A DNA stretch of 64,000 nucleotides from an uncultured Rhizobiaceae group bacterium (GTDB taxonomy: Bacteria > Pseudomonadota > Alphaproteobacteria > Rhizobiales > Rhizobiaceae). The DNA is taken from the NCBI GenBank assembly GCA_947501445.1, contig CANMVS010000011.1:62001-126000 (forward strand). Direction: 5' to 3'. Below, piece by piece: positions 1 through 63,338 of the stretch (within the stretch, counting starts at the first letter, position 1; each line of letters starts with the position of its first letter). The notes beneath the pieces were generated by a model, which ran no database searches, was not told where the DNA came from, and saw only the letters and a program-made list of their open reading frames with translations. Position numbers and translations under genes: made by a program.

Positions 1-65
1 CGGTGTTGGCCTCTGGTTTTGTTGATGCATTCAGGTTTTGCCGATTCCGTCAAAACCTGAATTGC
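1..65 (+). repeat. Dispersed 100-bp repeat, copy 1 (cut by window edge)
   Basis: This is the right-hand two thirds of the dispersed element described in the findings. It includes GTTGATGCATT and the complete right hairpin CAGGTTTTG-N10-CAAAACCTG, followed by ATTGC. It lies 6 bp beyond the stop codon of the autotransporter gene, so that gene's transcript would read into the hairpin first. Confidence 0.9.
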
Positions 66-71
66 TCCAGT

Positions 72-2741
72 TCAAAAAATTGCCAGCATGCGCGCATTGA
101 AGCCATGGGCCGTTGCACCATCACCATATTGGCCCTCATAGGAAGCACCGATCATCACATTGTCCGTGACGTTGACATCTAGTCCCAGTTCCGTGACGGC
201 TGCATCCTCGGCGATTGGTGCGCCAAGCACCGTGAAAGGCGTGCTGCCTGCAATGGTAAATGTCGATGCCGGATCAACATCGCCAAAAGCATGACGCCAG
301 CCAACCATGCCTCTTGTGTTGACCCTGTCAGCCAATTGCAGGCTGCTACGCAGACCAAGCGTTGTGTAGGTCGTGTCATTGGTTTGCGTGCCTGCCGACA
401 GCGCGGAAATACCACCGGTTTCGCTGTAAGCATCTGTCTTCAGGTTGATGTAGCTGACACCGGCAAATGGCTCCAGTGCGAACCTGTCTGTTTTGACCTC
501 ATAGCCGGCTTCAGCAAAGAACTGGTAGGAGCGTGCATCATAGTCGCCAGCCAGTGTTTCTGTAACCGGAATGGTCACCTGCCGTGTGGTTTCAATGGAA
601 TGCCACGTATAGAGCGCGCCAAAGCTGATACCGGCCGTGCCGTTTCCGGTGCTCTTTTCTGCACCGCCATAGACACCTATTGTATAGCTGTCGGCATCAC
701 CCGACGAGGCGAGCGCGTCGACACGGGTGGATGTCTGGCTATAGCCACCCAACAGACCGAGGCGGGCATTGTTACCGACCTCGCGGTCGATGCCGGCAAC
801 AAATCCACCAAGCGTGTTATCCATCTGGGCGGTATTGGACGTCGCATCCGTATCGGTCCAATTGCCATAGCCGGTGAGCCAGAAGCCGTTTTCGCCATCA
901 ATTGTGTCACCATAGGCGGCGGTGGAGCGCTCACCCGCTTCTGCCTCAAAGGTTGCATGAATGCGGTCATTCACTGCGCTGACTGCCTGCTGGCTATTTT
1001 CCATCAACGCTCCCATCAGCGATGCATGGGCTTCACCTGACATTTGGTCATAGGCATCGCGGGCAGCCCCCTCGGATTCCAGCAGGATCAACGTATCAAA
1101 CAGCGAATTGCCGGATGCCAAGGTGTCGAGACCACTTGCGAGGGATCTCTGGTTGTGCGTTTGTGCCAGGTCACCAAACGCAACGGTTTGATCAACAGTA
1201 ACTTTGACATAATGGGCTCCAGCTGTTGACGTGTCATAGTTCAAAGTTGGTGTCATAAAGACAGACGGCACTACGACATCAGCGAATGTTGATCCGAACC
1301 CTGGACTTGTGAGGATCACGATTTCCTGACCCAATTGTGCATCATAATCGCCAGTCAGCATTACAGTACCAGCAAGTGATGCTCCAACACCGACGGTCAG
1401 ACCCTGATCCGCGTGCGTGCCGTCCATTTCTACAAGGTAGTACGAGCCCGTGTTAAATGCGAGTTTGCCACTTGCAGTGCCAGTGCCTGACACAGTACCG
1501 CCGTCCGTAACTGTGATGTAGCCACCCAAAATATTGTCGATTGCAAGCGTGCCACCATGGATATTTGTCGGCATGCCACTCGCACTGCTATCACCTGTCA
1601 GCCGGGTGAAGCCGGCATAATGGTCAATCGCTGTTGTGCCGCTGCCACTGCTGATACCGGGGGTGAATGCATAGGTGCCCGTCACGTCGGTGTGATTAAA
1701 GACCAATGAGCCGGTTCCTGAACCGAATTGGACCAATGCTGTGTTCAGTGTGCCGGGAGCGATGGCGGCTTCACGCGCAGCAGCGCCGATGTTCACAGTA
1801 CCAGTGGAACTTCCAGATCTCGCAACATACGTGGTGCCAGCGACATCGACGAAGCCGCCATCCCCGATCGTCATGGTGCCGATGCCGGTGCCTACACTGC
1901 CGACAGTAAGACTTAGAGAATTGATCCATCTGGAGCCCGGACCGGTGACCATTACAGCGCCGTTAGAACCGGAATCGCGACCAATTGTGGCATCTGCGTT
2001 ACTGACTGTCCCGCCATTTTCAATCATCAATATGCTCTTACCCAGGTCGCTTACTAAAAATCTGCCGGACATGGTCCATTTGGACTGGGGGCCGCTGACT
2101 GTGACCGCGCCATCAGACCCGGATTGGACACCGATTAAGCCCCACGAACTGCTGACTGCCCCGCCATCCTCTATTATCATCGTGCCTGTGCCGGTTCTGC
2201 CGACCGAAATTGAGTTGGAATTGGCAGTCCAGTTGGAGCCCACGCCGGAGACTGTAACGAGGCCATTGGAACCGGATAAGCGACCAACTCTACCGTCGAG
2301 ACTGCTGACCGTCCCTCCGTCCCTGATTGTCAATGCACCAGTGCCTCCATAACCAATTTCGAGAAAATGGGAACTGGTCCACGTGGACCCCGGGCCGGTG
2401 ACTGTGAGAATGCCTTCCGACCCGGATGCAAAACCAATTCGGCTCAATCCGCTGCTGACCGTCCCACCGTCCCTGATCGTCAACATGCCGGTGGCTTCAT
2501 TGCCGACATAAAGAATGCCGAGAATAGGTGTCGGACCACCGCTTACTATTGTCGGATTGGACGTGATGGTGTCGATGATAATGTTTTCAGCCTCGATCGG
2601 CGCAGAGCCGTTGACCCAGTTTTCACCGTCGAACCAGTCCGTCGAAGTATCCCCATCCCATTCTGCGGCAAGAGCCAATGCGGAAGTCGAAAGAAAAAGA
2701 GGAAGCGGTAGCAGTCGCAGTTTTGTGTTGATTGAACTCAT
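72..2741 (-). CDS. Autotransporter (type Va secretion) with T5SS/PEP-CTERM-type passenger repeats
   Basis: An 889-aa type V secretion protein, predicted to span the outer membrane with its passenger outside. A signal peptide (hydrophobic LLPLPLFLSTSALALA, cleavage near ALA-AE) is followed by about five degenerate repeats of about 50 residues between residues 85 and 320. Their pattern is LTIRDGGTVSS, then IG..SGS.G.VTVSGPGS.W, then a SIGYGGTG-like turn, as in T5SS/PEP-CTERM-associated repeats. These should form a beta-helix. The C-terminal 270 residues, from about GFWLTGYGNW, are an autotransporter beta-barrel ending in phenylalanine. I chose the ATG at 2741 because GGAAAA lies upstream and the signal peptide then starts cleanly; an in-frame GTG lies at 2765. 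The cargo role is unknown; adhesion is an inference. The gene stands alone behind a long AT-rich region. Confidence 0.9.
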   Translation of the reverse strand: MSSINTKLRLLPLPLFLSTSALALAAEWDGDTSTDWFDGENWVNGSAPIEAENIIIDTITSNPTIVSGGPTPILGILYVGNEATGMLTIRDGGTVSSGLSRIGFASGSEGILTVTGPGSTWTSSHFLEIGYGGTGALTIRDGGTVSSLDGRVGRLSGSNGLVTVSGVGSNWTANSNSISVGRTGTGTMIIEDGGAVSSSWGLIGVQSGSDGAVTVSGPQSKWTMSGRFLVSDLGKSILMIENGGTVSNADATIGRDSGSNGAVMVTGPGSRWINSLSLTVGSVGTGIGTMTIGDGGFVDVAGTTYVARSGSSTGTVNIGAAAREAAIAPGTLNTALVQFGSGTGSLVFNHTDVTGTYAFTPGISSGSGTTAIDHYAGFTRLTGDSSASGMPTNIHGGTLAIDNILGGYITVTDGGTVSGTGTASGKLAFNTGSYYLVEMDGTHADQGLTVGVGASLAGTVMLTGDYDAQLGQEIVILTSPGFGSTFADVVVPSVFMTPTLNYDTSTAGAHYVKVTVDQTVAFGDLAQTHNQRSLASGLDTLASGNSLFDTLILLESEGAARDAYDQMSGEAHASLMGALMENSQQAVSAVNDRIHATFEAEAGERSTAAYGDTIDGENGFWLTGYGNWTDTDATSNTAQMDNTLGGFVAGIDREVGNNARLGLLGGYSQTSTRVDALASSGDADSYTIGVYGGAEKSTGNGTAGISFGALYTWHSIETTRQVTIPVTETLAGDYDARSYQFFAEAGYEVKTDRFALEPFAGVSYINLKTDAYSETGGISALSAGTQTNDTTYTTLGLRSSLQLADRVNTRGMVGWRHAFGDVDPASTFTIAGSTPFTVLGAPIAEDAAVTELGLDVNVTDNVMIGASYEGQYGDGATAHGFNARMLAIF

Positions 2742-3257
2742 TATTCGAAATTTTCCAGTGAACACTTGCTTGGGCGGAAATATCCGAGCGTGCGATTTGC
2801 TAATACTTACTTAAAGTCGCACAAATAACTTTGTTCAGTGTCGATAATCTTGATGAGTTCAATTTATTGTTTATGTTATTATTCAAGCAAGTAGATATGC
2901 ATTATAATATAGCTTATTAATCATATTGGCAGCGTGACTATTCGGTGTTTTATCAATTGTTGTAAATATGTAACAATATTGTTTGCAGATATGTATAAAT
3001 AAGTCGTAAAAAATAACAAAAAAACACATAATCTTGGATAGAGCTACACGTAAAATCGGTGTGTATTAATACTCGATATCTATATAAGTGTTTGCCGTGT
3101 GTATTCAGATCAGAGCAGGAATTGGTCAAATTAAATCAGGTCACGCCCGAATTGCCACCGACAGTAATAGCTATGTCCGTTTTCCAATTACGAACCTGCC
3201 GGAGTGATCTCGAAATGGGCCTCGTCAGGGCGAGACACGAAATATTGACGGGTCAGC
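2742..3257. other. AT-rich intergenic region upstream of the autotransporter
   Basis: About 500 bases without a convincing gene. The stretch 2810-3060 is far richer in A+T than anything nearby, with many TATAAT-like and A/T-run sequences. It would hold the autotransporter promoter. No clear operator palindrome or hairpin was found. An 89-codon frame from 3059 has no homology I recognise and no good ribosome site, so I treat it as chance. Confidence 0.5.
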
Positions 3258-3446
3258 TCAGCGGAATAGCGATTCCGCTGCGTTTTTGCTCTTGTGTTTG
3301 GTGGCTATTTCAGCCTCAATCCGGATGATTTCCTGTTGAAGAATGCCAATGCGCTCGGTCAGTTCATCGACCGATATCATCGACAGATCACCACCTATTA
3401 CATGGTCAACAGGTTTTTTATCCGGCTCTTCGTCGAAAAGTGACAT
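3258..3446 (-). CDS. DUF1192 family small protein
   Basis: A 62-aa acidic protein starting MSLFDEEPDKK. A central segment with the pattern LSVDELTERI.ILQQEI.RIEAEI is predicted to be an amphipathic helix or short coiled coil. This matches the DUF1192 family of about 60 residues, common in Hyphomicrobiales. No biochemical function is established. It is transcribed divergently from the quinone oxidoreductase gene, a neighbourhood I recall from other rhizobial genomes. AGGA lies upstream of the ATG at 3446. Confidence 0.8.
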   Translation of the reverse strand: MSLFDEEPDKKPVDHVIGGDLSMISVDELTERIGILQQEIIRIEAEIATKHKSKNAAESLFR

Positions 3447-3551
3447 GATTTTCCTCCATGTGCTTTGTCTGTCATGAATGATAAGGGATGTGCTGTGGCG
3501 TTTTCAACTGATATGAACAAGTTCGATCCGAACGTGAAGCAGGGAATCAAG

Positions 3552-4535
3552 ATGAAGGCAGTTCAAATTCGCGAACCCGGTGGTCCCGATGTGCTGGAGC
3601 TGGTTGAACGGCCAACACCTGATGCGGCAACAGGGGAATTGCTGATTGGCGTCAAGGCAGCTGGTGTAAACAGGCCCGATTGCCTGCAACGTCAGGGTGC
3701 TTATCCGCCGCCGCCCGGTGCCTCTGATATTCCGGGCCTTGAGGTGGCCGGTGAGGTTCTTGCAACAGGTGAGGGGGCCAGCGCTTTTGCTATTGGTGAC
3801 AAAGTCTGTGCGCTTGTGCCTGGCGGCGGTTATGCAACCCATTGCACGGTCCATGAAAGCAATGCCCTGCCTATGCCCGCCGGATTGGGCTTTAGTGAAG
3901 CCGCCGGTGTTCCGGAGACCTATTTCACCGTCTGGCACAATGTTTTTCAGCGTGGTGCACTACGACGGGGTCAATGCCTGCTTGTGCACGGCGGTTCGTC
4001 GGGGATTGGCACAACGGCCATCCAACTGGCCAAGGCCTTCGGTGCAACAGTGATTGCGACGGCCGGCTCTGAAGACAAATGCAATGCCTGTCGGGATCTT
4101 GGTGCCGACCATGTGGTCAACTATCGCAGCGATGATTTTGTTGCCGCTGTCAAGGAGGCGACGCAGGGCAAGGGTGCCGATGTTATTCTGGATATGGTGG
4201 GGGGCGACTATATCTCGCGCAATTATGATGCTGCGGCTGTGGACGGGCGTATTGTACAAATTGCCTTTTTGAACGGGCGCGTGGCACAGGCTGATTTTTC
4301 AAAACTGATGATGAAGAGGTTGACCCACACGGGTTCGACATTGCGTGCCCGCTCGATTGACTTCAAGGCGGGCATCGCCCGTGAGCTCAAAAAACTCGTG
4401 TGGCCACTGCTGGAAAAGCGCACGATCGCACCCGTTATGGATACACTCTTTCCGATTGACCGTGCATCAGCCGCCCATGCCCGCATGGAAGAAGGGCATC
4501 ATATCGGGAAGATTGTCCTCGACGTGCAGGAATGA
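3552..4535 (+). CDS. NAD(P)H-quinone oxidoreductase, PIG3-type zinc-independent MDR
   Basis: A 327-aa member of the quinone-oxidoreductase branch of the medium-chain dehydrogenase family, predicted to reduce quinones with NADPH in the cytosol. The N-terminal GroES-like domain carries AAGVNRPDCLQRQG and GLEVAGEV. The Rossmann half has VHGGSSGIGTTAIQLAK and the ending HIGKIVL. No structural-zinc cysteine cluster is seen. The ATG at 3552 is preferred over the in-frame TTG at 3465: AGGGA lies 6 bases upstream and the resulting length matches PIG3-type proteins (about 325-330 aa). The next gene, a 51-aa membrane protein, follows within 20 bp and is probably cotranscribed. Confidence 0.9.
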   Translation: MKAVQIREPGGPDVLELVERPTPDAATGELLIGVKAAGVNRPDCLQRQGAYPPPPGASDIPGLEVAGEVLATGEGASAFAIGDKVCALVPGGGYATHCTVHESNALPMPAGLGFSEAAGVPETYFTVWHNVFQRGALRRGQCLLVHGGSSGIGTTAIQLAKAFGATVIATAGSEDKCNACRDLGADHVVNYRSDDFVAAVKEATQGKGADVILDMVGGDYISRNYDAAAVDGRIVQIAFLNGRVAQADFSKLMMKRLTHTGSTLRARSIDFKAGIARELKKLVWPLLEKRTIAPVMDTLFPIDRASAAHARMEEGHHIGKIVLDVQE

Positions 4536-4554
4536 TTGCGCAGGGGATGACCTA

Positions 4555-4710: not shown

Positions 4711-4719
4711 CGGTCACAC

Positions 4720-5463: not shown

Positions 5464-5611
5464 GGGCGTGAACCGATTGTTGTGTGGTTTTATCCAATCT
5501 TCTGAGTGAGAAGAAGAATGGTCCTGGGATTTCGCACAGGGGAATGTCGCCCTGACAATTGCGTTGTGTCAAGCTTGAACAATCCCGGGCTCGCCAGAAT
5601 CTCCGTATCTG

Positions 5612-5708
5612 GATCGTTTCAGGTTTTGTCAGCAACGGGGCAACGGTGTCGGTCGTTGATTTTGTTGAAGCATTGAGGTTTTGCCGATCCCGTCAAAACC
5701 TAAAATGT
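5612..5708 (+). repeat. Dispersed 100-bp repeat, copy 2
   Basis: A full-length but diverged copy. The left hairpin region is GATCGTTTC, with CAACGGGG on the other side, and the right hairpin is GAGGTTTTG-N10-CAAAACCTA. Its right end reads TTCTAAG; the CTA at 5710-5712 is the complement of the TAG stop of the tetR gene, so the element's end supplies that stop. Confidence 0.85.
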
Positions 5709-5709
5709 T

Positions 5710-6321
5710 CTAAGTGCCAATAGACTTCATGATCATTGTTTCAACTGCTTTGCGTGTGTTTGAAGCCGCATTGCCCGTGTCAAATGCCACACGTGTTGCA
5801 GCCGCTTCAATTATGTCCAATAGGAGATGTGCCATCTGCATGGATGTGCAATCAAACTGGAAATCACCCATTTGTTTGCCCTGTTGCAAGGTGTCGGCAA
5901 GCAGGGTGGCCAATCGGTCGCGATTGTCCACGAAGCCTTTGGCAATTCGCGGATTGCGCATGGCTTCTGCCGTTATCTCGGCTGAGAGAATTGCAGTCTC
6001 AGGCTGGCAGAGCGTATCAAAATAGGATCCGGCAAATTTTTTTGTCCGATCATAGGCCGGGCGGGTCTCTTCCAGGATCGTTTCAATACGGGCAAGGTCT
6101 TCCGTCTCCAGTGTTGCTATTTCAGCGATCAGTGCCGCCTTGCTGTCAAAATGATTATAGAGATTGCCAAGGCTGATGCCCGCCTTCGCGGAGATGTCAC
6201 GCACACTGGTCTGGTGAAAACCCTGTTCGATGAAACAGGCTGCGGCCGATTCAACAATATGCCGTCGGCGCTTCAGGGTCGCTTCGTCTCGCTGCGTGGC
6301 TGGAGGCGGTTTTTTTGTCAT
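5710..6321 (-). CDS. TetR/AcrR-family transcriptional repressor
   Basis: A 203-aa TetR-family regulator. The N-terminal helix-turn-helix spans roughly residues 15-60, with RRHIVESAAACFIEQGFHQ followed by TSVRDISAKAGISLGNLYNHF. The remainder is an all-helical ligand and dimer domain of usual length. The ATG at 6321 is chosen because AGGA lies 7 bases upstream; an upstream in-frame start at 6375 would overlap the operator. Two near-identical palindromes (6357-6376 and 6509-6529) in the divergent promoter region suggest autoregulation and control of the small membrane protein and hydrolase on the other strand. The ligand is unknown. Confidence 0.9.
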   Translation of the reverse strand: MTKKPPPATQRDEATLKRRRHIVESAAACFIEQGFHQTSVRDISAKAGISLGNLYNHFDSKAALIAEIATLETEDLARIETILEETRPAYDRTKKFAGSYFDTLCQPETAILSAEITAEAMRNPRIAKGFVDNRDRLATLLADTLQQGKQMGDFQFDCTSMQMAHLLLDIIEAAATRVAFDTGNAASNTRKAVETMIMKSIGT

Positions 6322-6356
6322 GTGGAGTCCTGAATTAACAAGATATCCTGTAGCGG

Positions 6357-6377
6357 TGAATGAACGTACGCTCAATA
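6357..6377. promoter_or_regulatory. TetR-type operator, site 1
   Basis: TGAATGAACGTACGCTCA plus AATA matches 19 of 21 positions of site 2 (6509-6529). It lies 36 bp upstream of the tetR start codon, where a bound repressor would block tetR transcription. The ACGT-centred dyad is typical of TetR-family operators; that this TetR binds it is inferred from position. Confidence 0.7.
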
Positions 6378-6548: not shown

Positions 6549-6740
6549 ATGAAAATGCAAACGCACTGGTATCTTGGTTTCCTGGGGTTGATTGGTCTTT
6601 GGAAGCTGCCAATCATTCTGGCATCATTTGATGGGGCAATTGCGTGGTGGGGCCTGTCAAATGCCCTTTGGTTCCTGTGGTTTTTAAACTTCATCCCCGA
6701 AGAGGCCGGTTCAACACCTGAAAATAAAACCATCGAATAA
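6549..6740 (+). CDS. Small membrane protein (63 aa) divergent from tetR
   Basis: Starts at the ATG at 6549, with GAGG about 8 bases upstream. It encodes MKMQTHWYLGFLGLIGLWK, then aromatic-rich hydrophobic stretches (LPIILASF and WWGLSNALWFLWFLNFI) and a charged tail (PEEAGSTPENKTIE). One or two membrane helices are likely. I do not recognise a named family. Its promoter region carries TetR operator site 2, and it precedes the beta-lactamase-fold hydrolase by 67 bp, so the two may form a repressor-controlled unit. Confidence 0.6.
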   Translation: MKMQTHWYLGFLGLIGLWKLPIILASFDGAIAWWGLSNALWFLWFLNFIPEEAGSTPENKTIE

Positions 6741-15435: not shown

Positions 15436-15574
15436 CCTGATACCTGTCTGCGCCTGAATTAACCCCATTGCACAACCCGGTGGCAATCCAGCCCGCTGAG
15501 CAACAGTAATGATTTAAACAACCGTGCATTTTTGCACTGGCGCTTTGCAGGGCGCATCCTTATATTCGCCTCGC

Positions 15575-15735
15575 GTTCTGTGCCTCTCGACAGGAATCTC
15601 AATCCCCGGGGCCTTAATTGATCCTAAGGGAGCTGTCCCTGTTTAGACCCGTGGGTTTTTACATACGGCGCCCACCTACTTTGTAGGTTCCCGGGATCGT
15701 CATATTCCACCGTTTGATGCGGATCGCACCCATTT
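15575..15735 (+). ncRNA. ssrS: 6S RNA
   Basis: The stretch between the LacI remnant and the cyclo-ligase gene has the alphaproteobacterial 6S position and look. A TTATAT-type -10 box ends near 15565. The central part can pair: ATCCCCGGGG (about 15602-15611) with TTCCCGGGAT (about 15689-15698), enclosing a large GC-poor internal region with GGGAGCTGTCCC, CCCGTGGG and CCTACTTTGTAGG hairpins. 6S RNA binds RNA polymerase holoenzyme and mimics an open promoter. Exact ends are estimates. Confidence 0.7.
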
Positions 15736-17256: not shown

Positions 17257-17437
17257 CGGATTGATGCCCGTTCTGCCTCGCATACGACATCACTTCACCA
17301 CCTGTCAGATAGCCAATTTGCTCGGTGAAGCCGCTGCCATATAAAAAAATATCAATCAAATGTCGATTTCGTCATTGCCCGTTCGTCTGGTTAGTACAGA
17401 CGCACGAAGCTTCTGTTTTGAGACAGGGAGAAATGAC

Positions 17438-17791
17438 ATGCAGTATATGTGCCTAATCTATTCAGGCGAAGGAACCGGACCTCAGCCAGATACGCCGGAA
17501 ATTGGAGCCTATATGCAGGCCTATGGAGCCTTTACCGAAAAGGTCAGAGCTGATGGTAAATTTGTAGGCGGCGATGCCTTGCAGCCGATTGCAACAGCAA
17601 CCACCGTATCCGTGCGCGATGGCAAAACAGAAACCATGGATGGTCCGTTTGCCGAAACCAAGGAACAATTAGGCGGATATTACCTGCTTGATTGTGCGGA
17701 TCTGGATGAAGCCATTAAATATGCTGCGATGATCCCAACGGCCACCCATGGTCGTATCGAGGTGCGGCCTGTGGTTGTCTGGGACAATTAG
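17438..17791 (+). CDS. DGPF-domain YciI-family protein
   Basis: A 117-aa ferredoxin-fold protein of the YCII-related/DGPF family: MQYMCLIYSGEG, then ETMDGPFAETKEQLGGYYLL, and PTATHGRIEVRPVV. DGPF proteins are typically encoded next to ECF42-type sigma factors, and one such sigma gene lies 1.4 kb downstream (19199). ATG 17438 follows GGGAG. The stop codon TAG (17789-17791) is the first triplet of repeat copy 3, so this gene's 3' end coincides with an inserted element. Confidence 0.88.
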   Translation: MQYMCLIYSGEGTGPQPDTPEIGAYMQAYGAFTEKVRADGKFVGGDALQPIATATTVSVRDGKTETMDGPFAETKEQLGGYYLLDCADLDEAIKYAAMIPTATHGRIEVRPVVVWDN

Positions 17792-17792
17792 G

Positions 17793-17889
17793 GCACTTCA
17801 GGTTTTGACGGTATCGGCAAAACCTGAATGCATCAACAAAATCAAAGGCCGACACCGTTGTCCCGTTTCTGACAAAACGTGAATCGGTC
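17793..17889 (-). repeat. Dispersed 100-bp repeat, copy 3
   Basis: A full-length copy on the minus strand, running from the TA of the YciI stop codon (17789-17790) to a TA at 17890-17891, 103 bp from TA to TA. Reading with the YciI transcript, a hairpin with arms CAGGTTTTG and CAAAACCTG comes directly after the stop. Confidence 0.9.
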
Positions 17890-18026
17890 TAACCACCTTT
17901 CAACGTAACTGAAATCTCGAATCCGTCCCCGTTGATCGGGGGCGCCCTTTCGCTCGCGAATTGAGCAGCACTTAGCGTTGCATGCTCAGCATCGCTCAAA
18001 GCATTTAATTGAGGTGAGGACATACA

Positions 18027-20464: not shown

Positions 20465-20500
20465 TGTGCGTGCTGCAATATCAATGCTGACGTTTATTTA

Positions 20501-20596
20501 GACCGTTTTACGTTTTGTCAGAAACGGGACAATGGCTTCGGCCTTTGAGTTTGTTGATGCATTCAGTTTTGCCGATTGCGCTAAAACCTGAATTGC
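20501..20596 (+). repeat. Dispersed 100-bp repeat, copy 4
   Basis: A full-length copy with a preserved left end (TTAGACCGTTTTACG) and both hairpin regions. The right stem is weakened: CAGTTTTG faces TAAAACCTG, with one base lost. It lies between the convergent sigma factor and DUF817 genes, its hairpin end 13 bp beyond the DUF817 stop. Confidence 0.88.
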
Positions 20597-20608
20597 CCTG
20601 GCCGAAAT

Positions 20609-23794: not shown

Positions 23795-23805
23795 TATGGA
23801 CAAAG

Positions 23806-23870
23806 GCAATTCAAGTTTTGACGGAATCGGCAAAATCTCAACGCGTCAACAGATCAAAGGCCGACACCGT
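23806..23870 (-). repeat. Dispersed repeat, copy 5 (truncated, decayed)
   Basis: About two thirds of the element: the hairpin end GCAATTCAAGTTTTGACGG is followed by CGCGTCAACAGATCAAAGG and CCGACACCGT, after which similarity stops. The hairpin arm is damaged (CAAGTTTTG facing CAAAATCTC). It lies just downstream of the POT transporter stop. Confidence 0.75.
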
Positions 23871-27536: not shown

Positions 27537-28460
27537 AACGCATACTCCACACATATCAACAGTGTGGCGGCCGGTTGCTGGAAGTGACCTGTACCGCCAC
27601 GTATGGAGTGCTATGTGACACTCAATACCAGTCAAAATTTAGAGTGAAGTGGTTGAATGGCGTCACATTGCGTTTCCAGGAAAAACGGCTCGTGATGCCG
27701 ATAGTGATCTGTCTTTAGGCCGATTCACGTTTTGCCAGAAACGGGACAAGGGTGTCGACCTTTGATTTTGTTGATGCATTCAGCTTTTGTCGATCCCGTC
27801 AAAACCTGTATTGCGCTGGCCAACAGGCGAAAATCGACTTTGGAGTGTGGACGTTGTCCGGGTGTTTTTACCGTCGGGTACGGGTTCCGATCAGCTGGAG
27901 TTTTTAAAAACTGATCCGCAAATGTTTGGCAATTGTGGCTGGCGCGCCCTTGTCAGCACACCTTATTACCGGAGAACGCAACCGCTTCATTGTGCGTCGA
28001 TACGTGCCGCACCCGTGTTGATGACAACGGCTCCAAGCTATTGGCCCGGCTGTTTCGTATGGTGCCAAAAATCAGATATCGAATGTATTTGCTTCCAATC
28101 TGCAATCTTCTTTCGAAGGCGTTTCGCTTGCCTGTCGGGAAATCTCGATAAAGCGCTTTTGCAAAAGACAGCACAAAACTGACAGCACGCAGGCAAAACA
28201 AAGTGATGGATTTTCCAAATGGCTGAAGGAAACGCAGGCCCAGATCTTACCCCGTTTCAGATTGCCAAGAGATTTGCGGCGTGACCATCGTTGTAAATAT
28301 ATGTGTCTCTAGCCAGTGCAGTCAGAAGTATGGTACATAGACAAATATATATTTGATTGTAGTGGGAATAATGACGGTGTAAAAAGTGGTTTGACTTTCG
28401 AAGTAACCCGCGCGTGTTTTAATATTTGATTGCATAAGTATAAAGGTCAGGAGCTTGTAG
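27537..28460. other. Intergenic region with repeat copy 6 and no supported gene
   Basis: Over 900 bases. Repeat copy 6 occupies 27718-27814. From 27815 to 28200 there are overlapping open frames on both strands (for example 27787-28182 plus and 27953-28201 minus) with atypical composition and no recognisable domain; this may be a decayed gene. From 28290 to 28445 the sequence is AT-rich and includes TTGACT (28391-28396), a possible -35 box for the gene at 28461. Confidence 0.4.
27718..27814 (+). repeat. Dispersed 100-bp repeat, copy 6
   Basis: A full-length copy with left end TTTAGGCCGATTCACG and right hairpin CAGCTTTTG facing CAAAACCTG, leaving one C-C mismatch. It is not next to any stop codon; it sits 182 bp upstream of the SH3b protein gene start. 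It may mark the edge of a decayed gene. Confidence 0.88.
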
Positions 28461-34231: not shown

Positions 34232-34252
34232 ATTCGTCTGAACCTCTAGGGA

Positions 34253-34349
34253 GGAATTCAGGTCTTGCCGGAATCAGCAAGACCAGAATGCGTCAACAAA
34301 ATCAAAGACCCACACCGTTGTTTCGTTTCTGACAAAACGTGAAATGGTC
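34253..34349 (-). repeat. Dispersed 100-bp repeat, copy 7
   Basis: A full-length copy with a compensated stem: GGTCTTG faces CAAGACC, where other copies have GGTTTTG and CAAAACC. Its left terminus (TAGACC) supplies the TAG stop of the minus-strand gene ending at 34349. Its other end lies 21 bp after the stop of the exported protein gene. Confidence 0.9.
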
Positions 34350-34576
34350 TAGGTGCGATCCATCGCCTCGACCATTTGCTTGATCTTTACGGCCTTTTCG
34401 AAATGATCGAGCTCATGGGTTTTGATCCACCATTCTGCAGCTTCCATCAATAGTGCCGGGTTGTCGTTTCTGTTGGCAAAAAATGCATAAAATGAAAGGC
34501 CGACATTCGGTCCCTTTTGCTCAATTTTGCTATTGCACACCTGGATGATCTTGTTGCGTAGTATCTCTCTCATGGC
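34349..34576 (-). CDS. Conserved-looking small protein (75 aa)
   Basis: The segment MREILRNKIIQVCNSKIEQK, then GPNVGLSFYAFFANRNDNPA and LLMEAAEWWIKTHELDHFEK, has codon use and amino-acid balance of a real protein and looks like short rhizobial proteins of unknown function. The frame stays open upstream to 34717, so a longer form is possible; the ribosome site for 34576 is weak. Its stop codon TAG is the terminal TAG of repeat copy 7, so the natural C terminus may have been changed. Confidence 0.5.
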   Translation of the reverse strand, partial: AMREILRNKIIQVCNSKIEQKGPNVGLSFYAFFANRNDNPALLMEAAEWWIKTHELDHFEKAVKIKQMVEAMDRT

Positions 34577-36815: not shown

Positions 36816-36827
36816 ATCCGAAACCTG

Positions 36828-36924
36828 GACCGTTTCACGTTTTGTCAGAAACGGGACACCGGTGCCGGTCATTGCTTTTGCTGATGCATTCAGGTTTTGC
36901 CAGATCCGTCAAAAACTGAATTGC
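36828..36924 (+). repeat. Dispersed 100-bp repeat, copy 8
   Basis: A full-length copy with an intact left hairpin (CCGTTTC, GAAACGG) and a right hairpin with one shifted base (CAGGTTTTG, CAAAAACTG). The right terminal CTA (36926-36928) is the complement of the TAG stop of the metallo-hydrolase gene. Confidence 0.9.
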
Positions 36925-36925
36925 G

Positions 36926-37783
36926 CTACACACCGTCCAGAACAATAATTGTTGGTTGTTTGGGAAGGTTTCGCAGTGAGACTGTCACATTGTCCTGCCG
37001 GCGGAACTCACTGGCAAAATTACTGCCAAACAGATCAATGAAGGATGCAATGGATGCACCGCGCCGGTGCATTGGCAAGATAATCGACGACCGCAGCCGT
37101 TTAACAATGTCACTCATCGGTTTTTGACCAATTGTAAGGCCGCCATCAATGGGAACCATCAAAACATCAAGCCTGCCGATCTGGGCAAAATCACTGTCAT
37201 CGAGTTCATGGTGCAGATGCCCAAGATGGCCAATGCACAGGCCTGCCACTTCGAATATGAAGATGGAATTGGCATCAGGTTCCGCACCGCCAAACCCCGA
37301 ACGGATGTCGGTTGTCACGTTGCGAATATAGGTATCACCAACGACAAGGTTATAGTCGATGGAACCGCCGTTGGGGTTCCATCCGGGCAGAACATGTTCG
37401 ATGTTAGGATCGGGCTGCAGCGTGAAGTGGCTTCCATGGGCCTTGTTCATCGTTGCCACAGTCGGTGGCGGGTTTTGGCCGACATAGCCATTGTAGTCGG
37501 TGACAATACGAACACCCTGCGGTGTTTCGATCTGATAGGTTGAATGGCCGATGTAGGACAGGCGCACTTCATTGCGTTCAAGGGGGGTGCCTGCTGCCAG
37601 TTGCACATGACGGCCGGGGGATAGGCCGGCAATTGCCTGACAGGTGGACACCGGTTTGGGCGACAATGTTTCACTGACATCGGTCACGGCAATGGTTTCG
37701 GGCAGGACTGCAAACCCGCTCACAAGAATCAGGCTGCCAATCAGCGCCCCTGCAACCAGTCGATCGGGTACCTTGATCTTCAT
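36926..37783 (-). CDS. Exported MBL-fold metallo-hydrolase, UlaG-like
   Basis: A 285-aa protein with an N-terminal hydrophobic segment (VAGALIGSLILVSGFAVL) that suggests export or anchoring. The fold start is VRLSYIGHSTYQIETPQGVR. The first metal motif is unusual: MNKAHGSHF stands where HxHxDH is expected, so one metal site may be altered. AGLCIGHLGHLHHEL and LDVLMVPIDGGLTIG match UlaG-like lactonases. The stop TAG comes from repeat copy 8, so the C terminus VLDGV may be truncated or extended relative to the ancestor. Confidence 0.8.
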   Translation of the reverse strand: MKIKVPDRLVAGALIGSLILVSGFAVLPETIAVTDVSETLSPKPVSTCQAIAGLSPGRHVQLAAGTPLERNEVRLSYIGHSTYQIETPQGVRIVTDYNGYVGQNPPPTVATMNKAHGSHFTLQPDPNIEHVLPGWNPNGGSIDYNLVVGDTYIRNVTTDIRSGFGGAEPDANSIFIFEVAGLCIGHLGHLHHELDDSDFAQIGRLDVLMVPIDGGLTIGQKPMSDIVKRLRSSIILPMHRRGASIASFIDLFGSNFASEFRRQDNVTVSLRNLPKQPTIIVLDGV

Positions 37784-50598: not shown

Positions 50599-50686
50599 AC
50601 CGTCATGATCGTGTGAACAATATATGATCTGTGTGGCTCGTCTCATCTGGTCTGAATAATATTGGTCGCCCTGGTTTTGACCACTG

Positions 50687-50783
50687 GTCCGTTGCACGTA
50701 TTGTCAGAAACGGGACAATGGTGTCGGCCTTTTATATTGTTGGTGCATTCAGGTTTTGCCGATTCCGTCAAAACCTGAATTGC
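50687..50783 (+). repeat. Dispersed 100-bp repeat, copy 9, inside the tol-pal operon
   Basis: A full-length copy with a perfect right hairpin CAGGTTTTG-N10-CAAAACCTG and right end ATTGCTCTA. It lies 88 bp after the pal stop and 60 bp before the cpoB start, with its hairpins in the orientation met last by transcription from pal. Confidence 0.92.
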
Positions 50784-50843
50784 TCTATAGTGCTGGCCGG
50801 TAAAGTGCTTGCTGTCGTGTTGAATGAAACAGGTAACAACGAA

Positions 50844-51800
50844 ATGACTGTGTATCCCCGACTAATTGCTGCATGTGTTGCGAGTTTGCTGTTGCCAGGT
50901 CTGGCACAGGCCGCACTGTCTTCATCGGCGCAGCAAATGCAGATCAATGCATCGCCGCCGCTCCATGTTTCGTCCGCTAAAATCATCTCTCCTGCTGAGC
51001 CGGTCGGCGCGCCGGTTCTATTGGCGCAGGCGGGAGACAATACCTTTCGGCTTGGACAGCTTGAAGAGCGTGTACGCGATTTGACCGGCAGACTTGAAGA
51101 ACAGAATTTTCTGCTGCTGGAAATGCAGGAACGCATGCGCCAGATGCAGGAAGACAATGAGTTTCGCTTTCAGGAAATTGAAAGCAAGGGCACAGACAGA
51201 AGTGACGCGGGTGATGCTGCTCCTGCCCAAAAAAATACCGATGTTGCAGTTATTGCCCAACCGGATGAGACAAATGACCCATCCGTATCCTCAGGCACAC
51301 TTGGCACCGTGACTTTTGATCAGGATGGCAATCTGGTTGATGGGCAGGTCGATGGCCAGGTCGACGGACAGCAGGATATCGCTCAGGACCCGACCAAAAC
51401 AGCGTCTTTACCTGAAAGCGGTCCTGCAAGGCTCTATGCAACCGGTTATAATCATATTCTGACAGGAGACTATGCGCAGGCAGAGGCGGCATTTGCCCAA
51501 TATGTGGCGGAATACCCCCAGGGTGAACAGGTATCCGATGCCTATTTCTGGCTCGGTGAGGCACAATATGGTCAGACGTCCTATCATCAGGCGGCCAAAA
51601 CCCTGTTGAGCGCGCACAAGAAATATCCCGAATCGCCCAAGGCACCGGAGATGCTGTTGAAGCTGGGAATGTCGCTTGCCGCTCTGGACAACAGAGATAC
51701 AGCCTGTGCCACCTACCGCGAAGTACTGACCCGGTATCCCGGGTCAAGCGAAGCCGTCAAAAACAAAGTTGCGGTTGAACAGAGCCGTATGAGTTGTTAG
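50844..51800 (+). CDS. cpoB: Cell division coordinator CpoB (YbgF)
   Basis: A 318-aa periplasmic protein. It has a signal peptide (LIAACVASLLLPGLAQA), an N-terminal trimerising coiled coil (FRLGQLEERVRDLTGRLEEQ and NFLLLEMQERMRQMQEDNEF), a linker with a short tandem run DGQVDGQVDGQ, and C-terminal tetratricopeptide repeats (ILTGDYAQAEAAFAQYVAEY; DAYFWLGEAQYGQTSYHQAA; DNRDTACATYREVLTRYPGS). It ties peptidoglycan synthesis to Tol constriction. ATG 50844 has AGGTAA upstream. Confidence 0.92.
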   Translation: MTVYPRLIAACVASLLLPGLAQAALSSSAQQMQINASPPLHVSSAKIISPAEPVGAPVLLAQAGDNTFRLGQLEERVRDLTGRLEEQNFLLLEMQERMRQMQEDNEFRFQEIESKGTDRSDAGDAAPAQKNTDVAVIAQPDETNDPSVSSGTLGTVTFDQDGNLVDGQVDGQVDGQQDIAQDPTKTASLPESGPARLYATGYNHILTGDYAQAEAAFAQYVAEYPQGEQVSDAYFWLGEAQYGQTSYHQAAKTLLSAHKKYPESPKAPEMLLKLGMSLAALDNRDTACATYREVLTRYPGSSEAVKNKVAVEQSRMSC

Positions 51801-56873: not shown

Positions 56874-56985
56874 GCTGCAGGCAGTAAAACAAATAAATCA
56901 GCAATCATCACGATGGCACGTGTCGCCGTGTGTGCCGGAATTGTTCCTTGTCATCCCTATGCAACTCATCTGTAGCTGATGGCTG

Positions 56986-57082
56986 AATTGTTTCACATTT
57001 TATCAGAAACGGGACAATGGTGTGGGCCCTTGATCGTGTTGATGCATTCAGGTTTTGCCGATTCCGTCAAAACCTGAATTGC
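56986..57082 (+). repeat. Dispersed 100-bp repeat, copy 10
   Basis: A full-length copy: ATTGTTTCACATTTTATCAG at the left, and a perfect right hairpin CAGGTTTTG-N10-CAAAACCTG ending AATTGCC. It lies 112 bp after glmM and about 100 bp before the CtrA-like box of the next gene. Confidence 0.92.
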
Positions 57083-57183
57083 CCCGATATCATTGCAATC
57101 CAAATGACGGGCAGGCAACCACGTCGCGTCAACGCGGCTTGAAATCATTGGGTTTTTTCTGATTCTTCGGTAAACGGACATAG

Positions 57184-58248: not shown

Positions 58249-58288
58249 GGCATTCAGGTTTTGCCGATTGCGTCAAAACCTGAATGCC
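58249..58288. repeat. Hairpin-only derivative of the dispersed repeat, copy 11
   Basis: GGCATTCAGGTTTTG and CAAAACCTGAATGCC form perfect 15-bp arms around CCGATTGCGT. Only the right hairpin of the element is present; the left half is absent. It stands between the terminator and the CtrA box of the second omp gene. Confidence 0.85.
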
Positions 58289-58347: not shown

Positions 58348-58427
58348 AGTTTGTTGGATAAATGGCATCAACACATTTGCTTTGTGTGTTCTTCAATTCA
58401 CACAGGGCGGGCAAGAGGACGGATAGT

Positions 58428-59273: not shown

Positions 59274-59298
59274 GATGTGAGCCTTCGACAATCACAGG

Positions 59299-59321
59299 GG
59301 CGAGCAATGGCTCGCCTTTTT
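59299..59321 (+). terminator. Rho-independent terminator after second omp gene
   Basis: GGCGAGC (59299-59305), loop AATG, GCTCGCC (59310-59316), then five T residues. It stands 25 bp after the omp stop and before repeat copy 12. Confidence 0.9.
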
Positions 59322-59377
59322 GTTTTATATGTGGGGCAGTGGGCAAACGGTCCGACCCCCATATCCGCAACCCACCG

Positions 59378-59474
59378 GACCGTTTCACGTTTTTTCCGAA
59401 ACGGGACAACGGTGTCGGCCTTTGATTTTGTTGATGCACTCGTGTTTTGCCGATTCCGTCAAAACATGAACTGC
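59378..59474 (+). repeat. Dispersed 100-bp repeat, copy 12
   Basis: A full-length copy. Its right stem has CGTGTTTTG facing CAAAACATG, where the third base pair G-C of the consensus has become T-A, a compensated change. The right terminal CTA (59476-59478) is the complement of the TAG stop of the SRAP gene. Confidence 0.9.
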
Positions 59475-59475
59475 A

Positions 59476-60147
59476 CTATATGGGCCTGATCAAATCAGCG
59501 CCCTTGTTGGCAACTTTACCAACATCGGCCGAGACAGGATGGTAAAGCAGATTCCCACCGCGATTTTCCCGCAGGAGATCAAGCGCATCTTCATTGCTGG
59601 TTTGCGTATTCATCCATGCGGTTAGTGCCTTGCCCTTGAATATGACCGGCATGCGGTTGTGCAATTCTGCAACGTTTTCATCAGCGGCCAATGTAATGAT
59701 CGCAAATGTTACCGTATCCAGGTTTTTGTTACGCCCCATTATGCCGGCAAATGCAAAGGGTTCAAATGTCGGCGGGTCGCCCGGCAGATGGATAAGATAG
59801 GGCTGTTTTATCTTGTCCTGGCTATGCCACTCATAGTAACCGGTTGCGGGTATCAGACATCGCCCATGGGTAAAGGCTGTTCGAAAGAATGGTTTTTCTG
59901 CAACACTCTCTCCGCGTGCGTTGATCATCGCTCGGGTTTTGCTGTCCTTGGCCCAATGGGGGATGAGCCCCCAGCGAACCGGCCTGATGATGCGTTCACC
60001 TTCGCGGTTGGTGATGATTTCCAATTCGCTGGTTGGTGCAACATTATAATTGGGTTGTGGTCCGTTGCGTTTATCTACCTCAGGAGGAAGTATATTGAGG
60101 TACCTGCGGTACTGTGCCCAGGTTCCAGTAGTAATAAAACGACCACA
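59476..60147 (-). CDS. SOS response-associated peptidase (SRAP/HMCES-YedK family)
   Basis: A 223-aa SRAP protein. After removal of Met1, Cys2 (MCGRFITTG) can crosslink to abasic sites in single-stranded DNA. PNYNVAPTSELEII contains the conserved Asn, RWGLIPHWAKD and NARGESVAEKPFFRTAF are family signatures, RCLIPATGYYEWH carries the catalytic Glu and LHNRMPVIFKGKAL the His. Complete active site. ATG 60147 has AGGGA upstream. Its stop TAG is supplied by repeat copy 12. Confidence 0.93.
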   Translation of the reverse strand, partial: CGRFITTGTWAQYRRYLNILPPEVDKRNGPQPNYNVAPTSELEIITNREGERIIRPVRWGLIPHWAKDSKTRAMINARGESVAEKPFFRTAFTHGRCLIPATGYYEWHSQDKIKQPYLIHLPGDPPTFEPFAFAGIMGRNKNLDTVTFAIITLAADENVAELHNRMPVIFKGKALTAWMNTQTSNEDALDLLRENRGGNLLYHPVSADVGKVANKGADLIRPI

Positions 60148-60248
60148 CATCTTCTGATCCCTGTTCAATAGGATTTTGCATCAGTATTTATTGAAGCGTG
60201 CGGCGAATCAACTCCAGTTCCGATGGGAATGTAAACGAGGGTCGCATC

Positions 60249-60497
60249 ATGACAATTAAAACAATTCAGACATTGAAGAATCTACACGATGAAGGCTGGC
60301 ATTGCTGGGCACATTGCACTGGTCGCAATTGTGGTGGTGCAAGCCAAATGGACATCACATCACTGATGAAGCGATTTGGTGCAGAGCATTGCTTCATCAA
60401 TGAAACGCGAATTTCTGCCCGGCTCGTCTGTTCGCAATGTGGCCACAAAGGTGGTCGGCTGTCCATTTCCGCACCAAGCAGTGTGCGGGTGGACTGA
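60249..60497 (+). CDS. Small zinc-ribbon-like protein (82 aa)
   Basis: A protein with two pairs of cysteines: CWAHCTGRNCGG near residue 20, and VCSQCGHKGGRLSIS near 62, which could together hold one zinc. In between is MDITSLMKRFGAEHCFINET. I recall similar short proteins without names in rhizobia. ATG 60249 has GAGG 9 bases upstream. Repeat copy 13 follows 62 bp after its stop. Confidence 0.7.
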   Translation: MTIKTIQTLKNLHDEGWHCWAHCTGRNCGGASQMDITSLMKRFGAEHCFINETRISARLVCSQCGHKGGRLSISAPSSVRVD

Positions 60498-60559
60498 GGA
60501 TTATTGGATAGGTTGCCAATCCAACCTGCAAAGCTGTTCAGACGAAAATGGCGGCCCTA

Positions 60560-60656
60560 GGCTGTTTCACGTTTTGTCAGAAACGGGACAACGGTGTTGG
60601 CCTTTGATTTTGTTGATGCATTCAGGTTTTGCCGATTCCGTCAAAACCTGAATTGC
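60560..60656 (+). repeat. Dispersed 100-bp repeat, copy 13, inside a split palindrome
   Basis: A near-consensus full copy bounded by TA at 60558-60559 and at 60659-60660. Outside it, ATGGCGGCC on the left and GGCCGCCAT on the right are perfect complements, so the element appears to have opened a palindrome at a central TA. Confidence 0.92.
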
Positions 60657-60727
60657 TGTAGGCCGCCATCATGTTTTGGAAATTCTTATTCAGCCGCACA
60701 ACCGTGCTGTCTGAATTTCATCTCAGT

Positions 60728-61399
60728 TCAACGCCGGAGATGTCCTCCACCACCATAATGGGGATGGTAGGGTTGTACCGGATGGTAGGGGTGCACCGGA
60801 TGGTAAGGGTGCACCGGCTGATACGGATGATAGGGGTGCACCGGCTGGTATGGATGATAGGGATGCACCGGCTGGTATGGGTGATAGGGATGCACCGGCT
60901 GATATGGGTGATAGGGATGCACCGGTTGATACGGATGATAGGGATGGCACTCGGGCGCCTGTGGGGCGTGATAGCAATAGGGGCCGGGAACCGGGTGATA
61001 GGGATGATAGTAGCGGTTCCAGCTGTTGTACCAGGGGTAGTTGCGGTAGTGAATATTCCAGTAGTTCTGATTGAACACCACAATGGTGATATTGAGTGAT
61101 GCGCCAAGCGCTGGCGTCAGACCCGTGCGCTGTCCGTTGCTTTCCATCAGAATATAGGAGGATGCCATCCACCCGCGTGTCGAACCATAGGCGATGTCAC
61201 ACCATGTATAGCCCGTTTGGCAGCCATAAACCGTTATCGTTGAATCTTGTGGTACTGTGACAACTGCCGGGTAATTAGTGCCAGGCCCTGCTCTCAGGTG
61301 CACATTTGACGTCGTATAACCAACGGTTTGTGCCATTGCTGTTGCGGCAAACAGGGGCACACATAATGCCACCGCCAGCCCTGTCAGAAATTTCCGCAT
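60728..61399 (-). CDS. Exported SH3b protein with HPYHPYQPV tandem repeats
   Basis: A 223-aa secreted protein: signal peptide (FLTGLAVALCVPLFAATAMA-Q), a bacterial SH3 domain (about residues 25-80: SNVHLRAGPGTNYPAVVTV, CDIAYGSTRGWMASSYI), a Tyr/Trp/Asn-rich segment, and about five copies of a nine-residue His-Pro-Tyr repeat. Histidines at this spacing could bind metal; wall attachment through SH3b is inferred. ATG 61399 has GGA 8 bases upstream. The repeat could vary in copy number by slippage. Confidence 0.82.
   Translation of the reverse strand: MRKFLTGLAVALCVPLFAATAMAQTVGYTTSNVHLRAGPGTNYPAVVTVPQDSTITVYGCQTGYTWCDIAYGSTRGWMASSYILMESNGQRTGLTPALGASLNITIVVFNQNYWNIHYRNYPWYNSWNRYYHPYHPVPGPYCYHAPQAPECHPYHPYQPVHPYHPYQPVHPYHPYQPVHPYHPYQPVHPYHPYQPVHPYHPVHPYHPVQPYHPHYGGGGHLRR
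60765..60952 (-). repeat. 27-bp tandem repeat coding HPYHPYQPV
   Basis: Units of 27 bp, such as GGGATGCACCGGCTGATA then TGGGTGATA, occur about five times with few changes, and decay into 15-bp sub-units (GGTGCACCGGATGGTA) at the 60765 side. The unit is a multiple of three, so copy changes keep frame. Confidence 0.85.
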
Positions 61400-62470
61400 A
61401 AGTTCTGTCCAGTTCAAGTTGATTGACCCGTTTTATTAGATAAGCAGAGTTGAGCCGGGTCAAGTAATTTGAAATTTTTGTATGAATAGGGCTGCTGCAT
61501 TGAGGCGGTTATTTAAGATTCATACACCTGGGAACTTATGTCCATGTCCTGCAATGCCCGCCGGGTGGTAAATCTTACATCGCAGCAATCGCGCTTGTTA
61601 GACAATTGGTGCAAATCAGGTTTTGACGGATTCGGCAAAACCTGAATGCATCAACAAATTAAAAGACCGATGCCGTTGTCCTGATCCGGACAAAACGTGA
61701 AATAGTCTAAGTAAAGGGCCTGTGACAAAATGAGAGTTGATTCAATAGTCGGATTTGCTTTCGCATGGGCAGGAAAGGCGCCGGGAGGCATCTGCTCTGT
61801 TTCGATGGCCTGACAGTGGGTTACGAGCCTGCCAAACTTGTGAGATTCGATGAAGTCGTTGACTTCATTGAAGAGGTCGCGACAACAGCGGACTTCCAGC
61901 TGGTTACTATTGTTGACAAGGAAATTGAGGCAGCCAACCCAGTACCCTGCAAATGTCAAACCCGTTATCAAGAGTGTGTGCACCACAGTTTTTGAGCGCC
62001 GGTCCCTCTGCAATCTGGCAACGAGTAGCGCAATCTTCAGATATTTCGTGTGAGTTGAATTCAAAGGCCACCATGCGTACCTTCGATGAAATCAGAGAAG
62101 AAGCATTCGGATTGATTATTTGCTTCGGCTCAAAAGTCCGACATCCAACAGTGACATGTCGATGTGCCGATTTACCCTCTGTGTCCGTTTCAGTATTTGT
62201 TCCACGTACAGATATCCGTGTTTCCGGCGATATCATCTGGGGTCCCACCGTCAAAGACATCAGGCGTCATCTGTGCCACCTTGTTTGTTTTCGGCTGTGC
62301 CGGATGAATTTGTTGTTTAAATATCGGAATGAAAGCCTGTGCGTGGTCAATGTGATTCCAATGGGCCGATGTGCGACACTTGCGAACGCCTGACCGGTAC
62401 TGAAGTGCTGCAAAAGGAACAGTCAATAACGCTGGAACGGATATTCAATGCTGTCGAGAGGTAGGCTCTA
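61400..62470. other. Gene-poor region with repeat copy 14
   Basis: Over 1,000 bases without a gene I can support. Repeat copy 14 lies at 61611-61707. Between 61740 and 62400 there are overlapping frames on both strands (for example 61953-62393 plus and 61907-62260 minus), none with a recognised domain or a good ribosome site. They look like eroded coding sequence. Confidence 0.4.
61611..61707 (-). repeat. Dispersed 100-bp repeat, copy 14
   Basis: A full-length copy: GCAAATCAGGTTTTGACGG, a perfect stem core, then GCATCAACAAATTAAAAG, and the end GTGAAATAGTCTAA. The left hairpin is damaged (CCGGACAAAACG). It is not near a stop codon of any recognised gene. Confidence 0.88.
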
Positions 62471-62836
62471 TTAGCAGAAAAGGTTGTGACAACTAAAACT
62501 CGCCCGCACCGCCACAACAGTCCCACCAGCTTTTTCACAACTCAGCGCATCTTGTGTAAGCACAGCCACGTCATTAATCGAGCAATGCGTTGCATCTATT
62601 GTCTGGGTGGCCTGTGGTGCATGTGTATGCGGTGGGATCGGTGCTTGCATCTGTTGTGCTGGGACATAGACGGTCATGGAGACCATGCCGGGAGGGGCGG
62701 TGGGGATGGCGAATTTACCGACAACTCCCTGGTGCCTAGGTCGTCCTACAATATCGTCATGTGAAAACGTCTCAACTGCCATACCCGCCACCATCAAGCA
62801 AGTCGCCAGTGCAGTTTTTGCCAATCTTGAAGTCAT
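62471..62836 (-). CDS. Exported small cysteine-bearing protein (121 aa)
   Basis: A short gene with an excellent GGAGGT 8 bases before ATG 62836 and a clear signal peptide (AKTALATCLMVAGMAVETFS). The mature chain is rich in Pro, Thr and His in its middle (PIPPHTHAPQATQTI) and holds four cysteines in its last 40 residues (HCSIND, SCEKAGG, SCHNLFC), which could form two disulfides. No family recognised. It is isolated between gene-poor stretches. Confidence 0.65.
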   Translation of the reverse strand: MTSRLAKTALATCLMVAGMAVETFSHDDIVGRPRHQGVVGKFAIPTAPPGMVSMTVYVPAQQMQAPIPPHTHAPQATQTIDATHCSINDVAVLTQDALSCEKAGGTVVAVRASFSCHNLFC

Positions 62837-63338
62837 GCCTTTGTACCTCCGAGATTACTTATTTCATTAGTAAAGGCATATATATATCAATGAGAATGGT
62901 GTATATGAACATTGTAGCGATTAATGTTTATGCACACTGTTGAATGCCCACAAAAAAACTTGCAGTGGAGTAATTCAGGCCTTGACGGTAACGGCAAAAC
63001 CTGACGGCATCAACAACTTCAAAGGCCGACACTATTGTCCTGTTTCTGACAAAATGTGAAACGGTCTAACTCCATTGTCAGGAGTACAAAATAGGAACAT
63101 GTCGGGGCATTCAATACTATGCGGAAAGAAAGTGATGACACATGTGCAAGGGCAGACGATCCACTTTTATGAGATTCAAGGAAGCCTCTGGAGTGGTCGT
63201 GGCGGTTGCGGTAACTGCGGACTTCAAGCTGGTAGCCTCGGGAGGCACCCGACTTCGTGAAAAAAGTTCGCTTTGTTCGGCGATACTACGCCCATATGAC
63301 AGTTCATTGATGCGATTGGCGCATGCCGTAATCCGGGG
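62837..63338. other. Intergenic region with repeat copy 15
   Basis: About 500 bases. The promoter of the exported small protein should lie at 62840-62940, which is AT-rich. Repeat copy 15 is at 62970-63066. No gene is supported after it up to 63338. Confidence 0.4.
62970..63066 (-). repeat. Dispersed 100-bp repeat, copy 15
   Basis: A full-length copy: CAGGCCTTG faces CAAAACCTG, a partly broken stem. The left hairpin TGTTTC and GAAACGG is mostly intact, ending GGTCTAAC with terminal TA at 63067-63068. Confidence 0.87.

Follow-up and report, generated by a model that had tools for sequence, protein, structure and literature searches.

A two-hairpin repeat in a 64-kb genomic stretch

We analyzed a stretch of 64,000 nucleotides (the window; positions 62,001 to 126,000 of contig CANMVS010000011.1, assembly GCA_947501445.1) from the genome of an uncultured Rhizobiaceae group bacterium, referred to here as G000. 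A repeat of 103 bp (measured from TA to TA), which consists of two hairpins joined by a linker and is treated here as a candidate transposable element, recurs in this window. An earlier note on the sequence had listed 15 places, and all 15 carry at least part of the repeat (i.e., 12 full copies, 1 copy cut by the window edge, 1 fragment, and 1 lone hairpin). The full copies are located at positions 5608 to 5713 (+), 17788 to 17893 (-), 20497 to 20601 (+), 27714 to 27819 (+), 34248 to 34353 (-), 36824 to 36929 (+), 50683 to 50788 (+), 56982 to 57087 (+), 59374 to 59479 (+), 60556 to 60661 (+; the search query), 61606 to 61711 (-), and 62965 to 63070 (-). Each spans 106 model positions (106.1 to 131.4 bits; E value, 4.7e-24 or better). 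The edge-cut copy (model positions 37 to 106) occupies positions 1 to 70 (+). The nhmmer matches at 23805 to 23870 (-; fragment, model positions 37 to 103) and 58249 to 58286 (+; lone right hairpin, model positions 63 to 100) also aligned with the full model over longer stretches, although with low scores (45.6 and 38 bits, respectively).

The copies had been described as lying always outside clear genes, which requires amendment. In four of the 12 full copies, the adjoining open reading frame (ORF) terminates on a TAG formed by the terminal TA and the element's first G: the right ends of the copies starting at 5608, 17788, 36824, and 59374 are the stop codons of ORFs 5710 to 6375 (-), 17360 to 17791 (+), 36926 to 37783 (-), and 59476 to 60168 (-), respectively. 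In addition, the copy at 50683 to 50788 falls within the called ORF 50631 to 51800, a call that may be too long.

The earlier note had proposed a genome search, and further copies exist. An nhmmer search of the window plus the first 400 kb of three other contigs (1.264 Mb of the 6.82-Mb assembly) yielded 143 nonoverlapping copies, of which 106 were full length. The window contributed 15 copies in 64 kb and was denser than the remaining sample, in which the three contigs held 47, 38, and 43 copies (128 in 1.2 Mb). Extrapolation gives an estimate of approximately 730 to 770 copies genome-wide.

The consensus is Y-TA-GACCGTTTCACGTTTTGTCAGAAACGGGACAACGGTGTCGGCCTTTGATTTTGTTGATGCATTCAGGTTTTGCCGATTCCGTCAAAACCTGAATTGCTC-TA-R (Y, pyrimidine; R, purine), and its two hairpins and imperfect inverted ends are as first described. 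The repeat ends are TAGACCGTTTCACG and TAGAGCAATTCAGG, the terminal inverted repeats (TAGACCGTTTCACGTTTTG and TAGAGCAATTCAGGTTTTG) are alike at 15 of 19 positions, and both ends of the element start with G (i.e., TA-GACC...GCTC-TA). A pyrimidine precedes the left TA in 100 of the 106 full copies, and a purine follows the right TA in 85; the target site is Y-TA-R. The edges are sharp, with an information content of 0.7 to 1.7 bits at the left end (starting with Y-TA and going inward) and 0.3 to 1.5 bits at the right end, and the flanks outside the element are near-random (approximately 0.01 to 0.12 bits per position).

The right hairpin loop of the consensus contains GATTC (GANTC), which was retained in 56 of the 106 copies overall, in 22/26 of the youngest quartile, and in 11/31 of the oldest. 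A CcrM-related function of this motif was rejected because GANTC was not conserved after insertion. The break points of fragments cluster near model positions 37 to 42, 72, and 88 to 89. Isolated right ends of approximately 20 to 26 bp, broken off in the hairpin loop, were seen in G000 at C1:163636, C3:30430, C1:151426, C2:335789, and C2:118845.

Empty sites and duplication of a target TA

At least two G000 copies have paralogous empty sites. Paralogous sites were chosen for this comparison because cross-species intergenic DNA was too diverged, and spanning matches that were self-overlaps were excluded. The copy at 62965 to 63070 reads CTTGCAG-TG-[GAG...GTC]-TA-ACTCC, and its empty counterpart elsewhere in the genome (C1, approximately 89.4 to 89.6 kb) reads CTTGCAA-TA-GCTCC; CTTGCAATAG of that empty site recurs in two shorter paralogs in C2. 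The second copy (C2:357178) reads CAT-TA-[GATC...GCTC]-TA-GTAATATACATT, and its empty counterpart (C2, approximately 359.3 kb) reads CAT-TA-GCAATAGACATT. At these two empty sites, one target TA is represented after insertion by a TA on each side (i.e., the target is duplicated). The two paralogous sites, the sharp ends, and the near-random flanks support the earlier proposal of a MITE-like element (miniature inverted-repeat transposable element) that inserts at TA.

Coincidence of repeat ends with stop codons

At 29 of the 106 full copies, a neighboring gene (called in G000 on the basis of codon usage) has a stop codon made up of exactly TA and the element's initial G. Between -30 and +14, no other offset was represented by more than 3 copies (a tally including one copy from the congener G002), and offsets +1 to +105 accounted for 2 genes in G000. 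Relative to all tolerated sites, the share of 29/106 compares with null values of 6% for TA (P = 3e-12) and 14% for YTAR (P = 3e-4). In G002, 14 of 27 full copies end on a stop codon (null, 62/316; P = 2e-4), in stretches that were mostly picked because they held strong copies. A related repeat from another genus (genome G015) was on a stop codon in 18 of the 22 copies examined (26 found; null, 25%; P = 4e-8), and both element ends were stop codons in four copies.

Copies lay within 60 bp of a stop codon in 55 of 102 cases, versus 30% of YTAR sites, and the stop-codon excess is attributable to the YTAR preference together with concentration near gene ends. We dropped targeting of the stop codon itself as the main claim, given that nearby YTAR sites account for the local share.

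The ends of the genes concerned were also considered. Orthologs of ORF 36926 to 37783 end at the same codon in five species; the stop is TGA, TGA, and TAG in G004, G005, and G007, respectively, and is supplied by the repeat in G000 and G002. We scanned 20 of the 29 repeat-ended proteins with NCBIfam, 10 of these also with Pfam. In 11 of the 20, a family profile (in some cases matched below the curated cutoff) reached to within 6 positions of the profile end and within 11 residues of the C terminus (e.g., PstB, 272 of 272; LysR regulator, 291 of 293; EhuA, 268 of 271); the scan was uninformative for the other 9. From deposited records we took 14 rhizobial loci with a related repeat, of which 11 were usefully annotated. 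A gene stop coincided with the element end in 7 of the 11 (TAG in six and TAA in one), which is not a rate given that the loci were favored for a feature under the match; of the 4 loci without such a stop, two represent one locus in two strains. A literature search, in which subscription journals were thinly covered, returned no paper that we recognized as describing such repeats inserted in stop codons.

Distribution among genomes

Model searches gave at least 150 matches each in G000 and G002, and no copy in six other congeners (at most 150 candidates were scored in each genome), in agreement with the DNA search. In an unrooted tree of FtsH, GlmM, and TolB (1,607 columns), G002 groups with G003 (100%) and G000 and G004 are split from the rest (100%); G001 was not placed. 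On this tree, the two copy-rich genomes belong to nonsister species. Their copies reach 96 to 98% identity, versus mostly 70 to 80% for the window region's own aligned stretches, and a 50-base pattern occurs exactly at 17 places in G000 and 3 in G002 (reversed control, 0). Given two nonsister copy-rich species and six copy-free congeners, we conclude that the spread is of recent date and may have been horizontal.

Weaker relatives were found in other genera of the family, where the earlier note had suggested searching. Among 199 genomes of the same family, 4 besides G000 matched the model (30 to 57 bits), and G002 was absent from the matching entries. The sequence link to the G015 repeat is weak (12.6 to 14.9 bits), with the repeats of G020 and G011 being intermediate (39.7 to 47.4 bits). 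The G015 repeat was present in 425 plasmid records, mostly from Rhizobium and Sinorhizobium, and its occurrence makes Rhizobiaceae the probable family; plasmid records searched with a G000 copy gave no match. Within the window, G000 has approximately 19 kb of additional sequence (approximately 17.3 to 36.9 kb), which includes six of the repeat places listed above; the genes flanking it are adjacent in G004, G005, and G007.

A probable stop-sparing transposable element and alternative explanations

On the basis of these sequence comparisons, the repeat is very probably a short nonautonomous transposable element of the MITE class and of the alphaproteobacterial two-hairpin type, with stop-sparing insertion at Y-TA-R. 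A transposase acting in trans would insert the repeat at the TA of Y-TA-R and leave TA on both sides. Since both ends start with G, an insertion into the TA of a stop codon (TAA or TAG) would rebuild TAG in either orientation, and the gene would keep its stop. Insertions at gene 3' ends would be harmless because the stop is rebuilt; such copies would survive, and the family could reach several hundred copies. We infer that selection of this kind caused the clustering at 3' ends.

Several observations weigh against this explanation. The filled copy at 62965 to 63070 reads TG, not TA, at its left end, and the terminal TA is often lost, including in the quartile with the least divergence (17/26 copies retain it on the left and 18/26 on the right). 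Even young copies show decay of this TA through transitions, and both ends change as complements: double-end changes were TG..CA in 9 copies and CA..TG in 6 versus TG..TG in 2 and CA..CA in 1 (Fisher test, P = 0.013), a pattern not accounted for by simple duplication of the TA. The stop-codon excess disappears when the comparison is confined to the neighborhood of stops: of the 55 copies no more than 60 bp from a stop codon, 29 were on the stop, versus a null of 0.50 for YTAR sites in that range (P = 0.79). The copies that G000 and G002 each carry at one orthologous stop codon could mean inheritance and not separate spread. Finally, no autonomous partner with the same ends, i.e., no insertion sequence (IS) of the kind that the earlier note had suggested looking for, was present among 16 transposase loci scanned in G000 and G002.

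These loci came from a search of the two genomes with PF13358 (DDE_3), PF01609 (DDE_Tnp_1), PF13340 (DUF4096), and PF01797 (Y1_Tnp). The IS630 transposase domain DDE_3 had 0 matches in G000 and 2 in G002. With that result, and with no examined transposase locus having repeat-like ends, the IS630/Tc1-type mobilizer suggested earlier was left unsupported and is a guess. The end scan, in which L188 and L190 were covered by L064 and L058 (the same places, respectively), yielded only whole repeat copies, which adjoin loci L060, L064, and L186, and the DDE_Tnp_1 and DUF4096 loci of G000 carry ends other than those of the repeat. Locus L186, seemingly a transposase between two inverted copies, was rejected because an ABC-transporter gene is also present in the stretch and the IS there is only a remnant. 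The isolated ends in the 1.264-Mb sample were likewise rejected as IS ends because they are truncated copies stopping in the hairpin loop; beyond these isolated ends, no shared sequence was seen.

The same MITE might instead be moved by an IS5/IS427-type (IS711-like) transposase, which we regard as possible but rather unlikely. G000 has DUF4096/DDE_Tnp_1 transposases, one of which lies in an IS5/IS427-like element (L064, 1075 to 1921; C2) placed exactly on the terminal TA of a repeat copy; we take this element to belong to the IS427-like group. However, its terminal repeats (GGGCCTGTGGACATT) and those of the L058 element are unlike the repeat ends, and the nearest look-alikes (5 to 6 mismatches in 19; L058 and L191) are located where an IS5-like ORF begins, not at the tips of the IS. 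The comparison with IS711 rests on its duplication of TA at YTAR, as given in an excerpt of PMC3163539.

A different proposal, that the element is adapted to stop codons (with its terminal Gs kept for rebuilding TAG in either orientation) and that the transposition complex may prefer TA at stops or gene ends, seems doubtful; under it, alphaproteobacterial two-hairpin repeats would constitute a class of stop-codon-sparing transposons, with copies that include both stops of convergent gene pairs.

It is improbable that the copies are primarily structures (RNA or DNA) selected by the host at gene ends, for termination or for protecting the 3' ends of mRNA, with dispersal being secondary, despite their gene context. 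Neighbors were called on both sides of 141 copies, and in 135 of these any overlap with a called gene amounts to 20 bp at most. These 135 intergenic copies lie in tandem (69), convergent (53), and divergent (13) spaces, which hold 55%, 18%, and 27% of intergenic bases, respectively (convergent excess, P = 6e-9; divergent deficit, P = 1e-6), and 47 of the 69 tandem-space copies run against the genes (P = 0.0035). In the right hairpin, both sides had changed in 20 cases versus 8.1 under independence, and 11 of the 20 still pair. Single-side changes in this hairpin nevertheless broke the pair in 145 cases and kept it in 34, the left stem had 15 double changes versus 13.3 expected, and a search for RNA constraint on the repeat gave no clear case. 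Moreover, six congeners of G000 and G002 lack any copy, and purging of harmful insertions would give the same 3'-end bias.

Highly improbable is a REP/BIME-type repeat moved by a RAYT (Y1, single-strand) transposase: the unit has two hairpins, and a broken Y1 (RAYT-like) gene, the sole Y1_Tnp match in G000 (L035, 1318 to 1671; C12; 24.1 bits; one internal TGA), shares a 3.3-kb locus with a repeat copy, but the copy-rich G002 has no Y1_Tnp match, no intact RAYT gene with flanking repeats was found, and insertion at a YTAR target with TA on both sides is unlike the pattern that we associate with RAYT.

Relation to known repeats

The earlier note did not recognize the family by name. In line with this, an Rfam scan of the window matched the repeat to no family at the gathering score; the sole match was a 6S RNA (RF00013, 69 bits) at 15572 to 15729 (+). 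By anatomy, however, the repeat would sit with the alphaproteobacterial CIR, RIME, and Bru-RS repeats. RIME elements, which are intergenic in Rhizobiaceae, resemble it in length and in having two palindromes. The G015 repeat, with its TAGAGC...GCTCTA ends and the same stop-codon habit, is presumably RIME, which would make the sequence link to RIME as weak as that to G015. An excerpt of PMC2573895 names RIME among rhizobial repeats.

In the portion of PMC2229807 consulted, CcrM-associated intergenic repeats (CIR) of Caulobacter and Brucella are described as approximately 110 bp long and intergenic, with two long inverted-repeat arms, a linker, GANTC at the hairpin loop, and TA termini. By description, the length class, arms and linker, loop GANTC, and TA ends are shared with our repeat. 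According to the same portion, CIRs lack terminal repeats and their target duplication is unknown; our repeat differs in its TA duplication at empty sites and its imperfect inverted ends. Bru-RS1 and Bru-RS2 of Brucella are palindromic intergenic repeats of 103 and 106 bp (PMC10800456, in part), and IS711 inserts in Bru-RS1 with TA duplicated at YTAR (PMC3163539, in part); by description, L064 is a comparable IS at the end of one repeat copy. RUP of Streptococcus pneumoniae (107 bp; approximately 100 copies; same portion of PMC2229807), which targets TA and for which an IS630 element has been proposed as the mobilizer, is similar in length and target, but it has an IS with matching ends, and none was found for our repeat.

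For a known kind of repeat, the target duplication and the stop-codon link are what the present sequences add. If our explanation is correct, the stop-codon link would be a simple reason for hundreds of copies without broken genes. How CIR, RIME, and Bru-RS repeats move has so far been open, with CIR duplication given as unknown in the portion of PMC2229807 cited above. This question becomes directly testable with the TA duplication and with the stop-codon link, which was observed in the present genus, in a second genus, and in annotation deposited for rhizobia. Congeners differ sharply (copy-rich versus copy-free), which marks recent bursts where it might still be possible to find the transposase.

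Two further repeat arrays were observed. Tandem 9-bp repeats lie at 60744 to 60959 of the window and overlap ORF 60728 to 61417 (-). In the congener G004 (C6), an array resembling clustered regularly interspaced short palindromic repeats, with repeats of approximately 36 bp, occupies positions 89 to 1645 of locus L091, with similar stretches at 6592 and 6727.

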